Source: a virus. From it: a DNA stretch of 22,435 bases. The notes beneath the pieces are model-generated. The model saw only the letters and a list, made by a program, of their open reading frames with translations. It was not told where the DNA came from and did no database searches. The position numbers and the translations under genes were made by a program. The first letter of the stretch is position 1. Every line of letters starts with the position of its first letter. The stretch spans positions 1-22,435 of the IMG/VR virus record IMGVR_UViG_3300025073_000176; one strand, 5' to 3'. Positions 4,337 to 22,435 of this stretch are shown piece by piece.

Positions 4337-4554
4337 TCGAACGTCCCGTACGCTTCGTTCGCGCGTCGGCACGCCATGCACAGGCGCGCCCCTCCGACCG
4401 ACAGAAACGCGCGGTCACACTTCAGGCAAGTGCGCTTCTTCGACGCACCGAAAAGGTTTCGGTCGAACGGAACTACGGGGATTTTCATCCTCCGATAGAC
4501 GCGATCTTTCGCATCCACCTCGTCAGCCACGACGATGTCGATCTGGCTCGCCAT
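4333..4554 (-). CDS. Small zinc-ribbon protein
   Basis: This 73-residue protein starts at an ATG whose first base is the last base of the RNA-ligase stop (TGATG). The C-terminal half is a clear zinc ribbon: CLKC (Cys43, Cys46), a 12-residue loop RAFLSVGGAR, then CMAC (Cys59, Cys62). The N-terminal part includes VVPFDRNLF. Similar CxxC-F-S-x-G-R-x-CxxC ribbons are common in phage and bacterial DNA-binding regulators. It is probably co-produced with the ligase. Its partner is unknown. Confidence 0.85.
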   Translation of the reverse strand: MASQIDIVVADEVDAKDRVYRRMKIPVVPFDRNLFGASKKRTCLKCDRAFLSVGGARLCMACRRANEAYGTFD

Positions 4555-5528
4555 CAACCTTTTCTTCCGATGTAGTCGTCGCTCACGACCTTCAGCACCA
4601 GCCGCCCGATCTCGTCGTTGCGCGTCTCGTTGGCAGGGTGGATCACGATGCCTTCCCGCAAGTGCGACGCGCCGGGGACAAGCGATGGCCCGGAAGCCAA
4701 CGCCGCAACGAGTTCGAAATCGTACGGTCCAGTCCAGACCAGAGGCGCCAAATGCCCGGGCGCCATGCAATCATAGAGATCCACCGCGTGGAGCCAGCCA
4801 TGGGGGCACATCACGTCGAACACGCGGATGAACAAATCGCTCTTGCCTGCGCCGTACTTGAGGTCTTGGACCTGCCCGAAGACCTCTCCATAGGCGATGT
4901 GATTCGGATTCGCCCGGCACCACTTTTCGAGCCAAGGGTTCTGCGTCAGAGCGCGCCACCACATGATGCCCTGGTCTTCGCGCTTCCACTCGGTTCGAGA
5001 CCCACACCACATGCGCCCGTCGTGGAACACGAAACGACCGTTGGCGCCGTGGATCTTCTCGCTGACCAGCACGATTGTGCCGTTGAGAATCGCATGCGGG
5101 TACTTCCGTAGCGGCTCTACGTCGTAGCAGGGAGCGAAAACGCTGGGAGGCTTCTCGGCCTCGCCCCCGGAACCAGCAGCAGCCATCGGTGGTTCGTACC
5201 GTTCGATGCCAAGATCGGGGGCCGCGTTGTCGCCTTCCGCAAACCCCGCCGGCGCACGCACAAGCAGCCCCTGCGACATGACGCTGCGGAACTTTCGCAC
5301 GGTGATCCGCTCTCGGGTTCGCCCGTCCTTTGCCAAAAACGAGAAGATGGGCCGGTCGGTTGGTACAACATAATCTGGTTCCACGTACACAGCAAGGTCG
5401 CCCTCACGCCAGTCGTCGAGGCGCACCACGCACGTGTACCCACCGATGGACACGATCCCAAGCGAGTCCGCGTTCGGATGCTTTTTGATCTCGCCGAGAC
5501 GGACCACCTTCGCTTCGTGTTGGCTCAT
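4554..5528 (-). CDS. RNA ligase, Rnl5 (Deinococcus DRB0094) type
   Basis: This 324-residue ATP-dependent ligase would seal 3'-OH/5'-phosphate nicks through an adenylated lysine. The N-terminal ~110 residues (HPNADSLGIVSIGGYTCVV, then REGDLAVYVEPD) resemble the OB-like module that distinguishes the Deinococcus radiodurans Rnl5 family. The nucleotidyltransferase core carries motif I EKIHGANG (Lys158), a motif III-like IAYGEVFGQVQDLKYG (211-226), motif IV REGIVIHP (291-298) and motif V LVLKVVSDDY (Lys313). The catalytic set therefore looks complete. No polynucleotide kinase/phosphatase is encoded next to it. The ATG at 5528 lacks a clear Shine-Dalgarno sequence and is preceded by a GTGTACAC box. 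A role in repairing cleaved tRNA or nicked RNA/DNA is inferred from the family. Confidence 0.92.
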   Translation of the reverse strand: MSQHEAKVVRLGEIKKHPNADSLGIVSIGGYTCVVRLDDWREGDLAVYVEPDYVVPTDRPIFSFLAKDGRTRERITVRKFRSVMSQGLLVRAPAGFAEGDNAAPDLGIERYEPPMAAAGSGGEAEKPPSVFAPCYDVEPLRKYPHAILNGTIVLVSEKIHGANGRFVFHDGRMWCGSRTEWKREDQGIMWWRALTQNPWLEKWCRANPNHIAYGEVFGQVQDLKYGAGKSDLFIRVFDVMCPHGWLHAVDLYDCMAPGHLAPLVWTGPYDFELVAALASGPSLVPGASHLREGIVIHPANETRNDEIGRLVLKVVSDDYIGRKG

Positions 5529-5973: not shown

Positions 5974-5985
5974 CGCTCAACTCAG
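5940..5985. repeat. 11-bp perfect hairpin bounded by 9-bp direct repeats
   Basis: GATGGCGGGTC (5948-5958) and GACCCGCCATC (5964-5974) are perfect reverse complements around a five-base loop. The block is flanked by the direct repeat TCAACTCAG (5940-5948 and 5977-5985), one copy of which contains the stop codon of the virion-type gene. The hairpin lies immediately after that stop on the transcribed strand, as a terminator or mRNA-stabilising structure would, but it is not followed by a U-run. The flanking repeats could also mark a small duplication or insertion footprint. Confidence 0.8.
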
Positions 5986-6465
5986 TCTTGCATTGTACGA
6001 AATTCTGATCTTGTCAATGCTGGTCTTATTGACCGGCGTGATGATCGCTCGCATCATGCATGATCCGCCCGGCGACGTGTGCTGATTCAGCAGGACCACC
6101 TCGACGATCCCCGACGCAGACAGCGACCCACCGCCGGACGGGTACGACACGACCCACTTCATCGTGCGGCCCACGTCCATCGTCATCTGATCCGCCGTGC
6201 GAATCGACGACGCGACCGGCGACAGAACGTTGGTGTGTGCGCTGTTCGCTGCGGCTGCCGAAGTCCCAAGCCTGAACTGGTCGAAGAGGTTGGTCTGCAA
6301 CCCGGCGACCATGCGCCAAATCTGTTGCTTGCCGCTGTTGACCACGAGGTTCGTCGTCTCGCGTCGCGCGATCACCTCGGGCCCGTTCTTGCCGTCGCGA
6401 AGCACCTCAACGACCAACTTGTTCGGGCCTACCTTCGGGAGATTGTCACCGATCGCTGAGTTCAA
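5977..6465 (-). CDS. Putative phage tail/virion-type protein
   Basis: This 162-residue protein starts at a TTG (6465) with an excellent Shine-Dalgarno sequence (GGAGG, six-base spacer). It overlaps the glycosyltransferase fusion by 20 bases, so the two are translationally coupled. The order of motifs is TTNLVVNSGKQQIWRMVAG, then FRLGTSAAAANSAHTNVLS, then a strand-rich body ending AIITPVNKTSIDKIRISY. This matches the general plan of phage tail-fibre or virion accessory proteins (T-x-N-x-x-x-N-x-G-K start, GTG/T-A-A loop, late I-x-I-x-Y strand). There are no Cys clusters. It is the only virion-like gene in the window, and a hairpin follows it. The structural role is inferred from pattern. Confidence 0.78.
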   Translation of the reverse strand: MNSAIGDNLPKVGPNKLVVEVLRDGKNGPEVIARRETTNLVVNSGKQQIWRMVAGLQTNLFDQFRLGTSAAAANSAHTNVLSPVASSIRTADQMTMDVGRTMKWVVSYPSGGGSLSASGIVEVVLLNQHTSPGGSCMMRAIITPVNKTSIDKIRISYNARLS

Positions 6466-8149
6466 TTGCTGCCTCCAGAATCGTCACGTTGCTTGCGGCT
6501 TCGTCTACCAAGGCACAAGAAGCGTCTTTTGGCAAGAGTTCTGCTACTTTCCTTGCCCAATCCAACGCTTCTTTTGCCAACCCGAGTTCCCCGCAGCATT
6601 GCGCCAGCCGTTGGGCTGGTAGGTAGCTGTAGGCTGCAACATCATACCAGAAACTCGAGAACGGCGGCTTGCCTATTCCGACCGCGAACAGTTCGTACCA
6701 CCGTTTTGCTTCCTCGAACAGTCCCGAGCCGAAGGCCAGATCCCCCAGGCGCATCCAATGCTCGGTACGGCTCCAATCGTCTTCGGCGCAGCCGAGAAGC
6801 ACGGTGCGAGCTTCCGCATGCTCCTTTTGCTCCATCAGAAGCCTCGAAAGGACTAGCCTCGCCTGGTATCGGGCGGGCCCATTGCCGGTGCGCCGAGCCA
6901 GGAATTGCTTGTATCGTGCGATGCTTCTCGTCGGATCCGTCACACGAAGTTCTTGAGCCAGGTAGAACAGGCTCTCTTCGTTGTCCCCGTGTACCCAATC
7001 GTCCAGCAGCGTGCGCCGGTTCTGCACCTTGCGCTGCCCAGCACGGGCCTTCGCGTTGTCCGCGCTGCGTGCGTGGAGCGTCACGATACCCTGGATTTTC
7101 ACGCTCAACGTGCCGTGCGGGATGACGAGCGCATTGTGGACCGCTCGAGCATACCGAAGATTGGCGTCTCGACGGAACAACCACGGGAACGCCCACCGCT
7201 GTCCATCGCCCTCGCGCAGCACGTATCCAACCTTCGCCTCTGGCGGCATCACCGATCCGAGCGCCAAGAGGATGTCTTGCCCCTCTTTCAACCCTTCGTG
7301 GGCCTCGGTCATGAAGATCCAATCGCTGGTACACCTCTCGAGGCACTGGTTCCTCAGCCACGAGAAGTGAACTCCTCCTTCGGGCATCCGTTCTTCCGGT
7401 GGGCCTTCGGGCTCAACGAGGTCGAACACCTCGTCTGCGTAGCACTCCGCGATTTCCCGTGTCCGGTCTTTGCTGCGAGGGTCGACACCGATCACCAGTT
7501 GATCCGCCACGCCCCGGAACGACGCCAACACGCGCTCGATGTCGGCAGCCTCGTCACGGGCAGGCATCGTCACCGAAAGCGTCGCGCGATCATGGCGGAT
7601 CTCGTTCACGATGCCCAGCAAGAATCCGTCGATCACCTCAACGCGCACGTCGTCGAAGTAGTCCGCAAGCCATCGCTTGAACCCGATGGCCGTCCACTTC
7701 CGCACATGTTGCGGCTCCTCATCGGGGCCGAGACGGTTGTTCGGAACCGAGAAAAACCCTGTTCGTGCGCCGGTTCGCGCAAGGATCCGCCATGCGAAGA
7801 TTTCGTTCAGGTGTTCGAGCACCTCGGTTGCAAGGACGGCCCCGACTTCCTGCGGGATTTCTGGGAGATTTTCCCCACACAGATCCACCAGATTCGTTTG
7901 CAAGCCGCCTTGCGTCGCCAGTTCCAACGCTGTAGCCGAATGGTCCCAAACGGCAACCGTGAAACCATGGTCGCAGAGAAACCGTGCGAGGTCCCCGCGC
8001 CCGCCACCGATGTCGATTGCAGGCACGGGCGGCATCAACTGCGCGATGCGTTGGTACACGTTCGCCATCGCAGACGCGCGCCACGACTGCCCCGGGTCAG
8101 ACCACAGAGCGTTCCATCGGTCTACGCTGTTGGCTTCTTGCGCGTTCAC
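6446..8149 (-). CDS. Methyltransferase - GT2 glycosyltransferase - TPR fusion protein
   Basis: This 567-residue three-domain protein starts at a GTG overlapping the previous stop (GTGA). Residues ~40-185 form a class I SAM-dependent methyltransferase: motif I AIDIGGGRGDLA (Asp46-Asp53) and ATEVLEHL (107-114). Residues ~190-360 form a GT2-type (GT-A fold) glycosyltransferase: LSVTMPARDE, VIGVDPRSKDRT (Asp223) and SWLRNQCLERCTSDWIF. The usual metal-binding Asp-x-Asp-Glu after W-I-x is replaced here by TEAHEG (Glu282, His284, Glu285). Residues ~390-560 are helical repeats of TPR type (for example HAEARTVLLGCAEDDW and EEAKRWYELFAVG). It could methylate and glycosylate a common substrate such as a virion protein, host surface sugar or peptide. 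The adjoining coupled gene encodes a virion-type protein. Substrate is unknown. Confidence 0.9.
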   Translation of the reverse strand: MNAQEANSVDRWNALWSDPGQSWRASAMANVYQRIAQLMPPVPAIDIGGGRGDLARFLCDHGFTVAVWDHSATALELATQGGLQTNLVDLCGENLPEIPQEVGAVLATEVLEHLNEIFAWRILARTGARTGFFSVPNNRLGPDEEPQHVRKWTAIGFKRWLADYFDDVRVEVIDGFLLGIVNEIRHDRATLSVTMPARDEAADIERVLASFRGVADQLVIGVDPRSKDRTREIAECYADEVFDLVEPEGPPEERMPEGGVHFSWLRNQCLERCTSDWIFMTEAHEGLKEGQDILLALGSVMPPEAKVGYVLREGDGQRWAFPWLFRRDANLRYARAVHNALVIPHGTLSVKIQGIVTLHARSADNAKARAGQRKVQNRRTLLDDWVHGDNEESLFYLAQELRVTDPTRSIARYKQFLARRTGNGPARYQARLVLSRLLMEQKEHAEARTVLLGCAEDDWSRTEHWMRLGDLAFGSGLFEEAKRWYELFAVGIGKPPFSSFWYDVAAYSYLPAQRLAQCCGELGLAKEALDWARKVAELLPKDASCALVDEAASNVTILEAAIELSDR

Positions 8150-8556
8150 TCTTCGAGTCCCTTCGCCATCTCGATGGCCTGTAACAGCGCATCCAATTTG
8201 TTTTGCAGCAAGACAACCGCTTCGAGCAACTTTGCTTCGTTCGTTCCCGGTGTCGGTAGCGGAACGAGAATTCTTTCGGCTGCGGCTATCGCGTCGCGTC
8301 TGCGACTCAGAAGTTCATGCAGAACATCAAGCAGGGCGCTGTCGTGGTTTGCTGCCTGATCCATCCACTGCGTCAAGTCTGGCCCAACCCACGCCGAACA
8401 CGGATGCTTGCTTGCGCACGCAGAAGAACAGACACAAGAACCGCAGATTCCACAAACGTATTCGATTTCGCCGTCATCGCGCGCCACCCCGCAGACCCTA
8501 CATGCGAACGGGTCTGGCACCGGGCCGTCGTACAACTCGAATTTGCCGTATTTCAC
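8146..8556 (-). CDS. Cys-rich zinc-finger protein with helical tail
   Basis: The start is a GTG at 8556 overlapping the methyltransferase stop (GTGA). The 136-residue protein has a dense Cys cluster: Cys19, Cys22, Cys35, Cys38, Cys41, Cys43, Cys47, His51 and Cys53 (CRVCG, CGICGSCVC, SSACASKHPC). The spacing is reminiscent of two interleaved zinc sites of the MYND/B-box kind. The remainder, from about residue 60, is helical and could form a coiled coil (ALLDVLHELLSRRRDAIAAA, then KLLEAVVLLQNKLDALLQAI). A protein-interaction or scaffold role is inferred. It lies between the adenine methyltransferase and the glycosyltransferase fusion. Confidence 0.82.
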   Translation of the reverse strand: MKYGKFELYDGPVPDPFACRVCGVARDDGEIEYVCGICGSCVCSSACASKHPCSAWVGPDLTQWMDQAANHDSALLDVLHELLSRRRDAIAAAERILVPLPTPGTNEAKLLEAVVLLQNKLDALLQAIEMAKGLEE

Positions 8557-9335
8557 GGAAGTACCCCCGCTTTTCGCATCTCGTTCTGCGCCACGAGTTC
8601 TGCCACGATCTCCGGGTTCGACGCATCCCACGCCGCACACGAAGCCGCAAACTCGTCTGCGCGGACCTTCGCTGGCGTGCTTTCAAGGACACGAACCTCT
8701 CCATGCGGTCGCGTGGAAGAGAACACCAGCCAAACGTAGTCTGCGCTGTCTGCCGTGCTTCGGTAGAGCACGCCCGTCCGTTGGTGCTTGCGAATCGACG
8801 GGTCGAACCTTGGCCTGTTCGGGAGCACGTAGACGCTTGGCGTGTGCTGGCGCATGAACATGCAGCGTTCTTCGCTTGCGAGGAACCCCAAGCGCACAAG
8901 AACCGCTACCTCGTGCGCCAAGCCCAGAGATGCTTGGATGAATTCGTACGCAAGAGAATACGGTGGATTCGTGATCACCGCATCGAACAACAACGATTTA
9001 CCCTGGGCTATCTCTTCCCTGTCACGCACTGCCCATTCGAGGAAGTTTTCGACTATGCAGCCTCCGACCAACTGCCGCAGAGCGATTTCGTATTTACGAT
9101 TGACTTCGACGGGAAGCCACGAATGCCATATCGCGTAATTCTTGTGCGCCTCCACTGCACGAATGATACTTCCGCTTCCTGCGCATGGTTCGAGGATTCG
9201 CGCCCCGAGCCCACATATGTTCTTCCCGCCGATGGTCGGTCGCCACACGTCGAGCAACCGATCCACGCACCATTTTGGCGTAGGATAATCGTCCAGCGGC
9301 TCAGAAGAAGAACCGGCCCTACCCTTCGCGCTCAT
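8553..9335 (-). CDS. DNA adenine-N6 methyltransferase (NPPY type)
   Basis: This 260-residue SAM-dependent DNA methyltransferase has motif I ILEPCAGSGSI (about 47-57) preceded by DDYPTPKWCVDRLL, and the catalytic motif IV AVITNPPYS with Asn123-Pro-Pro-Tyr126. Motif I before NPPY is the order expected of gamma-type N6-adenine enzymes, and the YPTP element is typical of phage Dam-like proteins. The start at 9335 (ATGA overlap, GGGG upstream) is preferred to an ATG at 9356. No restriction enzyme is next to it, so it is probably a solitary phage enzyme that hides DNA from host restriction. Its target sequence cannot be read from the gene. Confidence 0.9.
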   Translation of the reverse strand: MSAKGRAGSSSEPLDDYPTPKWCVDRLLDVWRPTIGGKNICGLGARILEPCAGSGSIIRAVEAHKNYAIWHSWLPVEVNRKYEIALRQLVGGCIVENFLEWAVRDREEIAQGKSLLFDAVITNPPYSLAYEFIQASLGLAHEVAVLVRLGFLASEERCMFMRQHTPSVYVLPNRPRFDPSIRKHQRTGVLYRSTADSADYVWLVFSSTRPHGEVRVLESTPAKVRADEFAASCAAWDASNPEIVAELVAQNEMRKAGVLP

Positions 9336-19446: not shown

Positions 19447-20658
19447 TCAGAAACAAACCTCGCGCATGGCAGAGATTTCCGCCAAACGCTCCTCTTCGGC
19501 CTTCCGTTGCTCGCGCGTCGTAAACTTGCTGCGCGCTGTCGGATTGTTCTCGAGACACAGACTCCTGAACGGGCACCGACGCCCCGGGGTGTCGCATGCT
19601 TCGAGATTCCGATAGTACCGACCAGACCGTTCCGCCTCCATGATGTCACGAGTCGTCTGGTACGCCTCGAGCAACCATTCGTTGATCTGTTCGTCGGTCA
19701 CGGAATGCTGTGCGCGCCAATAGAAATTGCTGCCGTCGCGCGATGTGAGTTTTGAGATCACATCAACATACTCGGCTGCATCCACATGCGGCAACTCGCG
19801 CAGCGCTGCGAGGTATTTCTCGAGTGTCGTGTCGGTCCCCTGCGACTTGCTCAGACCACTCGACCCGGTCCCAACGCACGCATCGCACGGGGCACCGCCC
19901 TTTTCCTTCGTGCCCTTGCACTTCTTGCATTGGAGTCGATACGGTTCCGCCGGCAACTTCTTTCGCGCGACGTTGTAGAACAACCCAGAAATCGGCGTCC
20001 AGCCTTCCGACGCTGCGATCTCTCGCGCTGCGTACACGTACGGGATCGGCTGCGGAGACAGCACCATCTTGTGTGCAAACGTATCGAGGTCTGCGTCCGC
20101 TGAAGTCTTCGATTCGCACACTAGCGACACGCCCAGATCCTTGTCTCCCAAGATCAAGTCGATGTACCCGAGACAGTCCCACACAGGGCTTTTTCGCCCC
20201 ATCCCCGTCCCGGAACAAAACGCACACGGGGCACCGCCGTTATCTCCCGAAGCATCACACGACGAACACGGAACGCGCAGAGCGAAACGGAACTCGCGCT
20301 CGACGGCCAGCACCTCGAACCGCCTGTGATCGTCGGCATACTTCTCGACGTACCCACGCACCATGCCGAGAACGAGTTCTCCCATTTCTCGAAGTTCTTC
20401 TTCGGTGGTCCTGAACGAACTCGGATCGGCCTGAATCTGCAAAACCTGCTTGTCGAGCTCCGACGCAATGAAAGCATCGAAAACCACTTGCTTGTCGCAG
20501 TAGAATTTCTCCAAGCACTCGTGGAACAAGATTCCAGCGCGCAACGGCATCGCGCGATCCTTCGGCTGCAACCCCTCGACGCGCTCGTACTTGTACTGTC
20601 GCCGGCAGCGACGCCATTGGGCCAAAGCCGTCACGCTCGTGTGTCTTCGTTCGCTCAA
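19447..20658 (-). CDS. RecB/Cas4-like PD-(D/E)XK nuclease with iron-sulphur site and two zinc knuckles
   Basis: This 403-residue nuclease starts at a TTG (20658) that overlaps the HTH stop (TTGA) and has AGGGAG five to six bases upstream. Cys18 (WRRCRRQYKYERVEGL) together with Cys355, Cys362 and Cys368 near the end forms the Cas4/AddB-type 4Fe-4S set. The active site shows GYIDLILGD (Asp167), CESKTS (Glu182, Lys184) and PQPIPY (Gln203-xxx-Tyr207), with His46. Two insertions, at 131-148 and 244-261, each have CxxC...CxxCxGTG, like DnaJ zinc knuckles. They lie on either side of the catalytic residues. It would resect DNA ends for the annealing ATPase encoded next. Confidence 0.9.
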   Translation of the reverse strand: MSERRHTSVTALAQWRRCRRQYKYERVEGLQPKDRAMPLRAGILFHECLEKFYCDKQVVFDAFIASELDKQVLQIQADPSSFRTTEEELREMGELVLGMVRGYVEKYADDHRRFEVLAVEREFRFALRVPCSSCDASGDNGGAPCAFCSGTGMGRKSPVWDCLGYIDLILGDKDLGVSLVCESKTSADADLDTFAHKMVLSPQPIPYVYAAREIAASEGWTPISGLFYNVARKKLPAEPYRLQCKKCKGTKEKGGAPCDACVGTGSSGLSKSQGTDTTLEKYLAALRELPHVDAAEYVDVISKLTSRDGSNFYWRAQHSVTDEQINEWLLEAYQTTRDIMEAERSGRYYRNLEACDTPGRRCPFRSLCLENNPTARSKFTTREQRKAEEERLAEISAMREVCF

Positions 20659-20933
20659 AGAATCTCCCTGTAACTCGTTTCGACGCTTCGAGGAACAGCA
20701 TCGCGCAGTTCCCCGGCCAAAAGCCACTCGCCGCGCACTTCCAAGGCATCAGCAAGCCGAAGAAACCGCGGCAATCCGACTTGCGGAAGAGACTTCAAAA
20801 ACGCGCTCGCGTTGGCCCGCGACATTGCCATCTTCGTTGCGAGTTCAGCCGTCGTGCTGATTCCAAGCACAGCCATCCGAACCCGAACACGTTCACGGAT
20901 CTCGTCTCCAAGCGTTTTCATGTCGGTGTTCAT
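20655..20933 (-). CDS. Cro/CI-type (XRE) helix-turn-helix regulator
   Basis: This 92-residue protein starts at an ATG overlapping the preceding stop (ATGA). Residues ~10-70 form an XRE helix-turn-helix: LGDEIRERVRVRMAVLGI, then TTAELATKMAMSRANASAFL as the turn region, then GLPRFLRLADALEV. The last residues (GEWLLAGELRD) resemble a shortened CI-type extension. It has no oligomerisation or cleavage domain. As an orphan within the operon it may fine-tune early genes; which promoter it binds is not visible. Confidence 0.9.
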   Translation of the reverse strand: MNTDMKTLGDEIRERVRVRMAVLGISTTAELATKMAMSRANASAFLKSLPQVGLPRFLRLADALEVRGEWLLAGELRDAVPRSVETSYREIL

Positions 20934-21213: not shown

Positions 21214-22435
21214 CTAAATCGAAAACACGAGGTCCGTCACACTCGCATCCTCTGTCAAGTCCTGAATCGCAACGCTTTCGTCGCAAAATGCTTTCATCGA
21301 ATCTGCGCAATCCGACCCAATCAGAATCCCGTACGTCACCACTCCGAGATTCTCAGACCGTTGGCGATAGCGCTCTGCGTAGTGGTCTCCAACGTACCCG
21401 TCCGACACCAGAATCACATCAGCGCGGGAGAACACACCATCCGCCTCGATGATGCCCAGAGCCTCTTTCAGCGCAGGCTCGAAGTCCGTTCCGCCACCTG
21501 AAAAAAACTCCATCGCTTCGAGAACTTCATTCCACCTCGCAGCAGCGTCTTCCGGCCCCATGATTCGCAACGTCATCCCGATTGCAGTGTCGAAGTGAAT
21601 CAACGCAAACGCGCGTTTTTGAATCCGCGCAACTTCCATGAGACCCAAGGCCACAGCCTTTGACCAAATCTCACGAGTTCCAGACATCGAACCTGAATTG
21701 TCAACACACACCACAATCGGACCGCGCTTCATCTTCTCGCGCCCGCGCAACTGGTAGCACAGCAGCGCACCTTCGTAGAGCCGCCGCGCAAACTCCCCTC
21801 GCGTTGCAGGACGCGCAAGCAGCGCCAATTCGCTCGGCAGCACTCGCGACAAGTCCGTACCCTGCTCGATGTCCGTCACTTCGTCCTGCGCGTTCGACAC
21901 CTTGCTCGCCTGCTTTTGCGCAGCCGTCGCGCGCATCCTTCCTGCAAGGTCCGCAATTCGCGCCAACTTCTTCGACCCTGCGATCTTCTTGATGACCTCC
22001 CTCTTCTTCGCGATGTCGCCGCCCTTCCCCGCGGCACCTGCACCACACCCGCAGCCGTACGATTCGATGCTGTCCTGCGCCTCTGTGATCTCTTCCTGGG
22101 CTTGCTCACAAGCTCGCCGGAAGGCTTGCCGAATCATCTCGGGAGCCATCCCGTTTGCCATCTGCTCGGCTGCGCCCTTCGCTTCCTCCATCGCGCCCTG
22201 AACACCCGATACATCGCCAGCCGAAACAGACCCCTCTTCCGCCATGCGTCGAAGTCCGTCCAGCGCCCGCGCGTATCGCGCAGCATCCGGGATCGGCTGA
22301 TCTCCTTTCGGTTCCGGCATGATCGCCAGCAACTGTTCCGTCACCGTCGTTGCAGCCATCCCGGACCACAACTGGTCTCCGACGCAACGGGCCTTCAATT
22401 GCTGAAATTCTGGCAACTGCTCGGCCACTTCGTGC
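21214..22435 (-). CDS. VWA-domain protein, ViaA/CoxE-like (5' end at window edge)
   Basis: At least 404 residues are present. The frame stays open to the right edge, so the GTG at 22428 may or may not be the true start. The N-terminal ~200 residues are helical (EEAKGAAEQMANGMAPEMIR and KKREVIKKIAGSKKLARIAD) with a CGCGAGAAGKGG insert. The C-terminal half is a von Willebrand A domain with an intact metal site: CVDNSGSMSG (Asp243, Ser245, Ser247), GGGTDF (Thr314), SDGY (Asp343). The run GPIVVCVDNSGSMSG resembles ViaA, the partner of the MoxR-type AAA+ ATPase RavA, so such an ATPase may lie just beyond the edge. Its role in a phage is unknown. Confidence 0.9.
   Translation of the reverse strand, partial: HEVAEQLPEFQQLKARCVGDQLWSGMAATTVTEQLLAIMPEPKGDQPIPDAARYARALDGLRRMAEEGSVSAGDVSGVQGAMEEAKGAAEQMANGMAPEMIRQAFRRACEQAQEEITEAQDSIESYGCGCGAGAAGKGGDIAKKREVIKKIAGSKKLARIADLAGRMRATAAQKQASKVSNAQDEVTDIEQGTDLSRVLPSELALLARPATRGEFARRLYEGALLCYQLRGREKMKRGPIVVCVDNSGSMSGTREIWSKAVALGLMEVARIQKRAFALIHFDTAIGMTLRIMGPEDAAARWNEVLEAMEFFSGGGTDFEPALKEALGIIEADGVFSRADVILVSDGYVGDHYAERYRQRSENLGVVTYGILIGSDCADSMKAFCDESVAIQDLTEDASVTDLVFSI

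Follow-up and report, generated by a model that had tools for sequence, protein, structure and literature searches.

The window, that is, the whole stretch of 22,435 nucleotides of virus record IMGVR_UViG_3300025073_000176 that was analysed, encodes a protein that joins a class I methyltransferase, a GT2-type glycosyltransferase of GT-A fold and a TPR-type helical domain, and that has a rare but strictly conserved E-x-H motif at the position of the usual metal-binding D-x-D. In the window and in nearly all related loci, its gene is paired with a gene encoding a tail-fibre-like protein. We propose, with a probability of roughly 0.55, that this protein is a bifunctional enzyme, which glycosylates a virion protein, most likely the tail-fibre-like partner, and then O-methylates the sugar. 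To our knowledge, glycosylation of phage virions is known in few systems, and the enzymes involved are mostly unassigned.

What we infer about the enzyme, from its activities, donor and acceptor to its use of metal, the sequence of its steps and its biological benefit, can be outlined as follows. The TPR domain would hold the acceptor, for which the product of the overlapping downstream gene, the tail-fibre-like protein, is the most likely candidate, and the GT-A domain would move a sugar from a nucleotide-sugar onto this acceptor. E282 and H284, which replace the usual D-x-D, would probably bind a divalent metal together with a C-terminal His. The N-terminal methyltransferase, with a putative metal site of E109, E112, H113 and H148, would then add a cap by O-methylating one of two vicinal hydroxyls, plausibly those of the transferred sugar. 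The benefit might lie in, e.g., receptor binding or shielding.

Domain organization and predicted fold of the enzyme

The enzyme gene (6446-8149, minus strand; 567 aa) starts with GTG at position 8149 and has its last codon at 6449. On the plus strand, this interval is broken up by stop codons and was rejected as non-coding. The TGA of an upstream ORF encoding a Cys-rich product (8146-8640, minus strand) overlaps the GTG start in the sequence GTGA; family searches with this ORF gave no match, and it is informative as operon context only.

The methyltransferase domain (residues 1-188; 7586-8149, minus strand) was delimited with Pfam and the structural model and contains a D46-x-G-x-G-x-G SAM loop; Methyltransf_11 matches residues 46-116 with 21.4 bits, at a cut-off of 21.2. 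The GT-A (GT2) domain (residues 189-362; 7064-7585, minus strand) is indicated by Pfam, by the alignment with GmaR and by the predicted structure, with Glycos_transf_2 (PF00535) passing its cut-off at residues 192-285 (26.1 vs. 23.3 bits). In the TPR-type domain (residues 363-567; 6449-7063, minus strand), several Pfam TPR models match residues 390-542; the best of them, TPR_16, does not reach its cut-off (26.4 vs. 32.7 bits), and a helical-repeat fold is predicted all the same. This domain is likely to bind a protein acceptor. In FlmG, protein acceptors are selected by TPR domains (PMC7591256). Pfam domains and predicted structure together bear out the methyltransferase-GT2-TPR fusion that had been claimed in an earlier note made from the sequence alone.

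The ligand- and metal-free AlphaFold2 model of the enzyme, obtained with 26 sequences, has a mean pLDDT of 91 and a pTM of 0.87. The GT-A fold, the presence of which at residues ~190-360 had been set as a test of the fusion, is seen in this confident model, and its best Foldseek matches in the PDB are SunS/ThuS (7msn, 7msk and 7msp, over ~300-395 columns), followed by methyltransferases and TPR proteins. The closest glycosyltransferase sequence in the PDB is that of the flagellin GlcNAc-transferase GmaR (22ao, E 6.5e-12).

The E-x-H motif

Residues 277-286 of the enzyme read W277-I-F-M-T281-E282-A283-H284-E285-G286, and in the model the motif follows a strand at 277-280 and precedes a strand at 285-289. 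In alignments with GmaR (PDB 22ao, WIVAIDADE) and SunS (7msp, WIYFIDADN), E282 and H284 fall on both Asp residues of D-A-D. The residues of the TEAHEG sequence that had been reported in place of Asp-Ala-Asp-Glu are thus exact, and the E282-A283-H284-E285 stretch (7295-7306, minus strand) lies at the D-x-D position. As E-x-H occupies this position in the alignments with GmaR, SunS and canonical relatives, these alignments leave no D-x-D elsewhere in the chain. Instead of the D-x-D canonical for GT2, all members of the enzyme family have E-[G/A]-H there. Other GT-A landmarks are retained (D199, E200, G221, D223, R266-N267, H338 and H359), in line with the earlier remark that GT2 landmarks besides the motif remain, and D223, R266 and N267 are kept across the groups with D-x-D, D-x-H and E-x-H. 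Both H338 (7136-7138, minus strand) and H359 (7073-7075, minus strand) are conserved in the alignment; the former is our candidate for the metal-coordinating C-terminal His (a role described in PMC7185993) and the latter is an alternative candidate.

E282, H284 and E285 are invariant in 32 of the 32 aligned members (~47-50% identity), whereas residue 283 is Gly in 25 and Ala in 7 of them. The codons of the invariant residues vary synonymously (E282, GAG 19/GAA 13; H284, CAC 19/CAT 13; E285, GAG 18/GAA 14), and therefore it is the identity of the residues that is kept by selection. One of the search patterns, [SG][DE]WIFMT, may bias the letters surrounding the motif but not E-x-H itself; two members reached via the tail-fibre-like gene, with no motif in the search (L059 and L070), also carry E-x-H, and so do L093, L114 and L117. 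The motif is a family-wide feature and not a local mutation.

The loss of D-x-D can mean either metal independence, as in GT14 and prokaryotic GT6, or lost catalysis, as in COSMC (PMC7185993). Accordingly, the glycosyltransferase domain might be metal-independent or dead and only bind or chaperone the tail-fibre-like protein, with the methyltransferase alone being active. We regard this as improbable, since the replacement residues are of metal-ligand types and invariant, with no sign of drift, the remaining GT-A residues are conserved, and some relatives have D-x-H. For the same reason of invariance, drift to a pseudo-enzyme is not favoured. It is more likely that the change from D-x-D to E-x-H retunes rather than abolishes the metal site of the glycosyltransferase, because Glu as well as His can act as a metal ligand and D-x-H is functional in GT27 and GT60 (PMC7185993), the former of which additionally uses a C-terminal His to coordinate the metal.

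Relatives of the enzyme and the origin of the motif

Searches of IMG/VR yielded relatives of the enzyme, full length or nearly so, at 6 loci at first and at 31 subsequently, on contigs of 6 to 452 kb. No relative of the enzyme or of its glycosyltransferase half was found among the isolated phages of the collection searched, and a divergent member (L038), when used as a query, reaches only gmaR-like and SunS-type glycosyltransferases there. The 84,980 species genomes contained no full-length relative; nine relatives of the glycosyltransferase found in them have D-x-D-type motifs. The carriers of the enzyme are a group of uncultivated tailed phages.

In a maximum-likelihood tree, the E-x-H proteins form a single clade (support 99/97). 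Four rows with D-x-H are placed just outside it, with a support of 91/80 for the joined group, although two of the D-x-H branches are long and their placement is unsure. A search with the glycosyltransferase domain, to which a pattern from another part of it was added (AD[EQ]...G[IV]D), brought in distant GT2 proteins; most of these have D-x-D-E, and the D-G-H-E/D form of the motif occurs in L124, L127-L129, L130 and L146. Because the nearest outgroups have D-G-H-E/D and the farther relatives D-x-D-E, the simplest order, and a likely one judging from these sequences, is D-x-D, then D-x-H, then E-x-H.

The proteins of L124, L127-L130 and L146 are GT2-TPR proteins without a fused methyltransferase, encoded apparently within head gene modules. 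L146 encodes two D-G-H-E/D proteins of this kind in tandem, and those of L127-L129 carry at the C-terminal end a long additional region resembling a second glycosyltransferase.

A putative metal tetrad in the methyltransferase domain

The SAM loop of the methyltransferase is conserved as D46-x-G48-x-G50-x-G52, along with D69 (G50 in 31/32 and D69 in 30/32 members). The loop had been described as extending from Asp46 to Asp53; the former residue is conserved in the 32-member alignment, but the latter is not. In addition, T108-E109-x-x-E112-H113 and H148 are invariant in all 32 aligned members. E109, E112 and H113 (within 7811-7825, minus strand) align with E130, E133 and H134 of UbiG and would be the first three residues of a metal tetrad of HEN1/UbiG type, with H148 (7706-7708, minus strand) proposed as the fourth. 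This putative tetrad is a new point, absent from the earlier note. The substrates of HEN1 and UbiG are vicinal diols or catechols, of which one hydroxyl is methylated. The match of the E-x-x-E-H...H pattern to these enzymes suggests that a vicinal diol, perhaps that of a sugar, is O-methylated by the methyltransferase.

In plant HEN1, Mg2+ is coordinated by Glu796, Glu799, His800 and His860 and by two hydroxyls of the substrate (2' and 3'), and in human HENMT1 the first three residues of the tetrad follow strand 4 and the last one follows strand 5 (PMC10781085). H148 sits after the corresponding strand (130-136) of the enzyme model and fits the HEN1 pattern (PMC10781085), although this match is by pattern only, as the aligner paired H148 with no His of UbiG. 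The domain scores well below the UbiG equivalog cut-off (20.1 vs. 102.95 bits).

The paired tail-fibre-like gene

The gene following that of the enzyme (5977-6465, minus strand) encodes a tail-fibre-like beta-sandwich protein of 162 aa. Its TTG start falls within the 3' end of the gene for the enzyme and is preceded, at a distance of 6 bases, by a Shine-Dalgarno-like GGAGG (6472-6476, minus strand). The predicted structure of the protein (pLDDT 80) matches an HFTV1 tail protein and, weakly, the arm segment of phi812; in a viral library it matches tail fibre and tail-collar fibre proteins. The protein of the window has no match in isolated phages. A distant version of it (L078) matches eight isolated-phage records, one of which is annotated as a tail fiber protein.

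A homologue of this gene is located directly 3' of the enzyme gene in 30 of the 31 relatives in which this could be tested, the exception being L117. A reverse search with the tail-fibre-like family alone gave 33 close copies (at least 49% identity), and the enzyme gene adjoins upstream in 29 of the 32 copies that have upstream sequence. The three copies without it (L054, L061 and L063) are at sites that look like tail modules; that of L054 is downstream of a baseplate wedge protein. The coupling to a virion-type gene that had been noticed in the window is therefore confirmed and proves much stronger than was apparent there, and the reciprocal search rules out a chance neighbourhood.

We propose that the tail-fibre-like protein is the acceptor or a partner of the enzyme. 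The coupling could also mean partnership or expression timing rather than an enzyme with its substrate. SunS-like S-glycosylation of the tail-fibre-like protein is not favoured, as this protein has no conserved Cys.

Genomic neighbourhood and alternative acceptors

Apart from the tail-fibre-like gene, the neighbours of the enzyme gene vary, and clusters of capsid-module genes are present in 10-11 of 25 loci. Genes around the pair in the relatives encode a portal, a MuF-like minor head protein, an XkdF-type protease, a capsid-type protein, a head-tail adaptor and a tail sheath. The window itself contains replication, lysis and integrase genes and, apart from the tail-fibre-like gene, none that was recognised as a head or tail gene, so the virion module of its phage is unseen.

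These surroundings bring in another acceptor for the same enzyme, namely, the major capsid protein or long proteins that are rich in Ser/Thr and contain numerous short repeats of S-D-x-V-x-V-T-D-like type, with the tail-fibre-like protein being a co-expressed partner only. The repeat proteins are possible alternative acceptors; in 12 of 28 loci (L010, L012, L014, L015, L019, L020, L023, L025, L026, L027, L029 and L034), they are encoded no more than 5 kb downstream of the enzyme. The enzyme gene of relatives is found among capsid genes, and D-x-H relatives without the tail-fibre-like gene also appear, by eye, among terminase/portal-like genes. Moreover, PMC12619734 states that the known glycosylated phage proteins are capsid and tail-tube subunits, and glycans on both are reported for mycobacteriophages in work that it cites. 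However, capsid or repeat genes are near in some loci only, while the tail-fibre-like gene adjoins in 30 of 31, and we consider such an acceptor possible but rather unlikely.

A target other than a virion protein, i.e., a host or small molecule (such as a surface polysaccharide, in superinfection exclusion) or phage nucleic acid, is in our opinion very unlikely. Glycosyltransferase clusters of jumbo phages have been linked to changes of capsule or O-antigen (PMC7824862), the tetrad is shared with HEN1, which methylates RNA, and an RNA ligase with an OB-fold (PF09414, PF21189) is encoded in the window two genes downstream of the tail-fibre-like gene (4554-5528, minus strand). Nevertheless, an RNA ligase gene did not show up among the conserved neighbours, and the TPR domain, the virion-gene surroundings in the relatives and the tail-fibre-like pair favour a protein acceptor.

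Comparison with known systems

GmaR, the flagellin O-GlcNAc transferase and antirepressor of Listeria, has in common with the enzyme a related GT-A domain followed by TPR, and it modifies a filament protein. It differs in having D-A-D-E and an extra antirepressor domain (PMC9638930), and no methyltransferase. The chain of the enzyme ends at residue 567 inside the helical repeats, which leaves little room for a GmaR-like C-terminal antirepressor domain. SunS and ThuS, the glycocin S-glycosyltransferases of Bacillus/SPbeta, likewise combine GT-A with a helical repeat domain of the type found in the enzyme and use a protein or peptide acceptor, but they have D-A-D, lack a methyltransferase and act on a glycocin peptide. 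The enzyme is far below the SunS equivalog cut-off of NCBIfam (TIGR04195; 12.6 vs. 350 bits).

GT27 and GT60 are polypeptide glycosyltransferases acting on protein acceptors. They share with the enzyme the GT-A fold and His at the second motif position (PMC7185993), but they are retaining CAZy families with Asp at the first position, where the enzyme has Glu, and no sequence match between them and the enzyme was found in this analysis. D-x-H as such is present only in the outgroup relatives. UbiG/COQ3 and HEN1 have the class I fold with the E-x-x-E-H...H tetrad, as appears to be the case in the enzyme, the domain of which is, in contrast, fused to a glycosyltransferase. In cluster O mycobacteriophages, O-methyltransferase and glycosyltransferase genes are also situated among head genes, between portal and protease, and capsid modification was proposed, but these are separate genes; the part of that report available to us describes no pairing with a tail-fibre-like gene (PMC4351075).

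GT2-TPR protein glycosyltransferases, methyltransferases of UbiG/HEN1 type and virion glycosylation are each already known singly. Our literature search, with many subscription papers outside its scope, found no description of a clade-level E-x-H, of its D-x-H relatives or of such a fusion paired with a tail-fibre-like gene. The natural series of D-x-D, D-x-H and E-x-H within one GT2-TPR lineage lends itself to the question of how the metal site of a GT-A enzyme can change, and the HEN1/UbiG-type domain of the enzyme is a candidate sugar methyltransferase. Tentatively, one may envisage that this lineage moved its metal site from D-x-D via D-x-H to E-x-H and acquired by fusion a diol O-methyltransferase, so that one enzyme would put a capped (O-methylated) sugar on the dedicated tail-fibre protein of a two-gene unit. 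This compact unit of enzyme and candidate acceptor could be expressed in E. coli and is directly testable.

Other features of the window

A long ORF at 19447-20727 (minus strand) contains two zinc-finger stretches of CxxCxGxG type with weak matches to DnaJ and anti-TRAP models, and its product is possibly a nuclease with inserted zinc fingers. The ORF at 21214-22428 (minus strand) encodes a VWA-type protein that resembles ViaA (NF008230, 94 bits, under the cut-off) and strongly matches phrog_24053. At the contig end, positions 4-141 are occupied by a G+C-rich tandem repeat of ~24 bases with a 6-base sub-unit.
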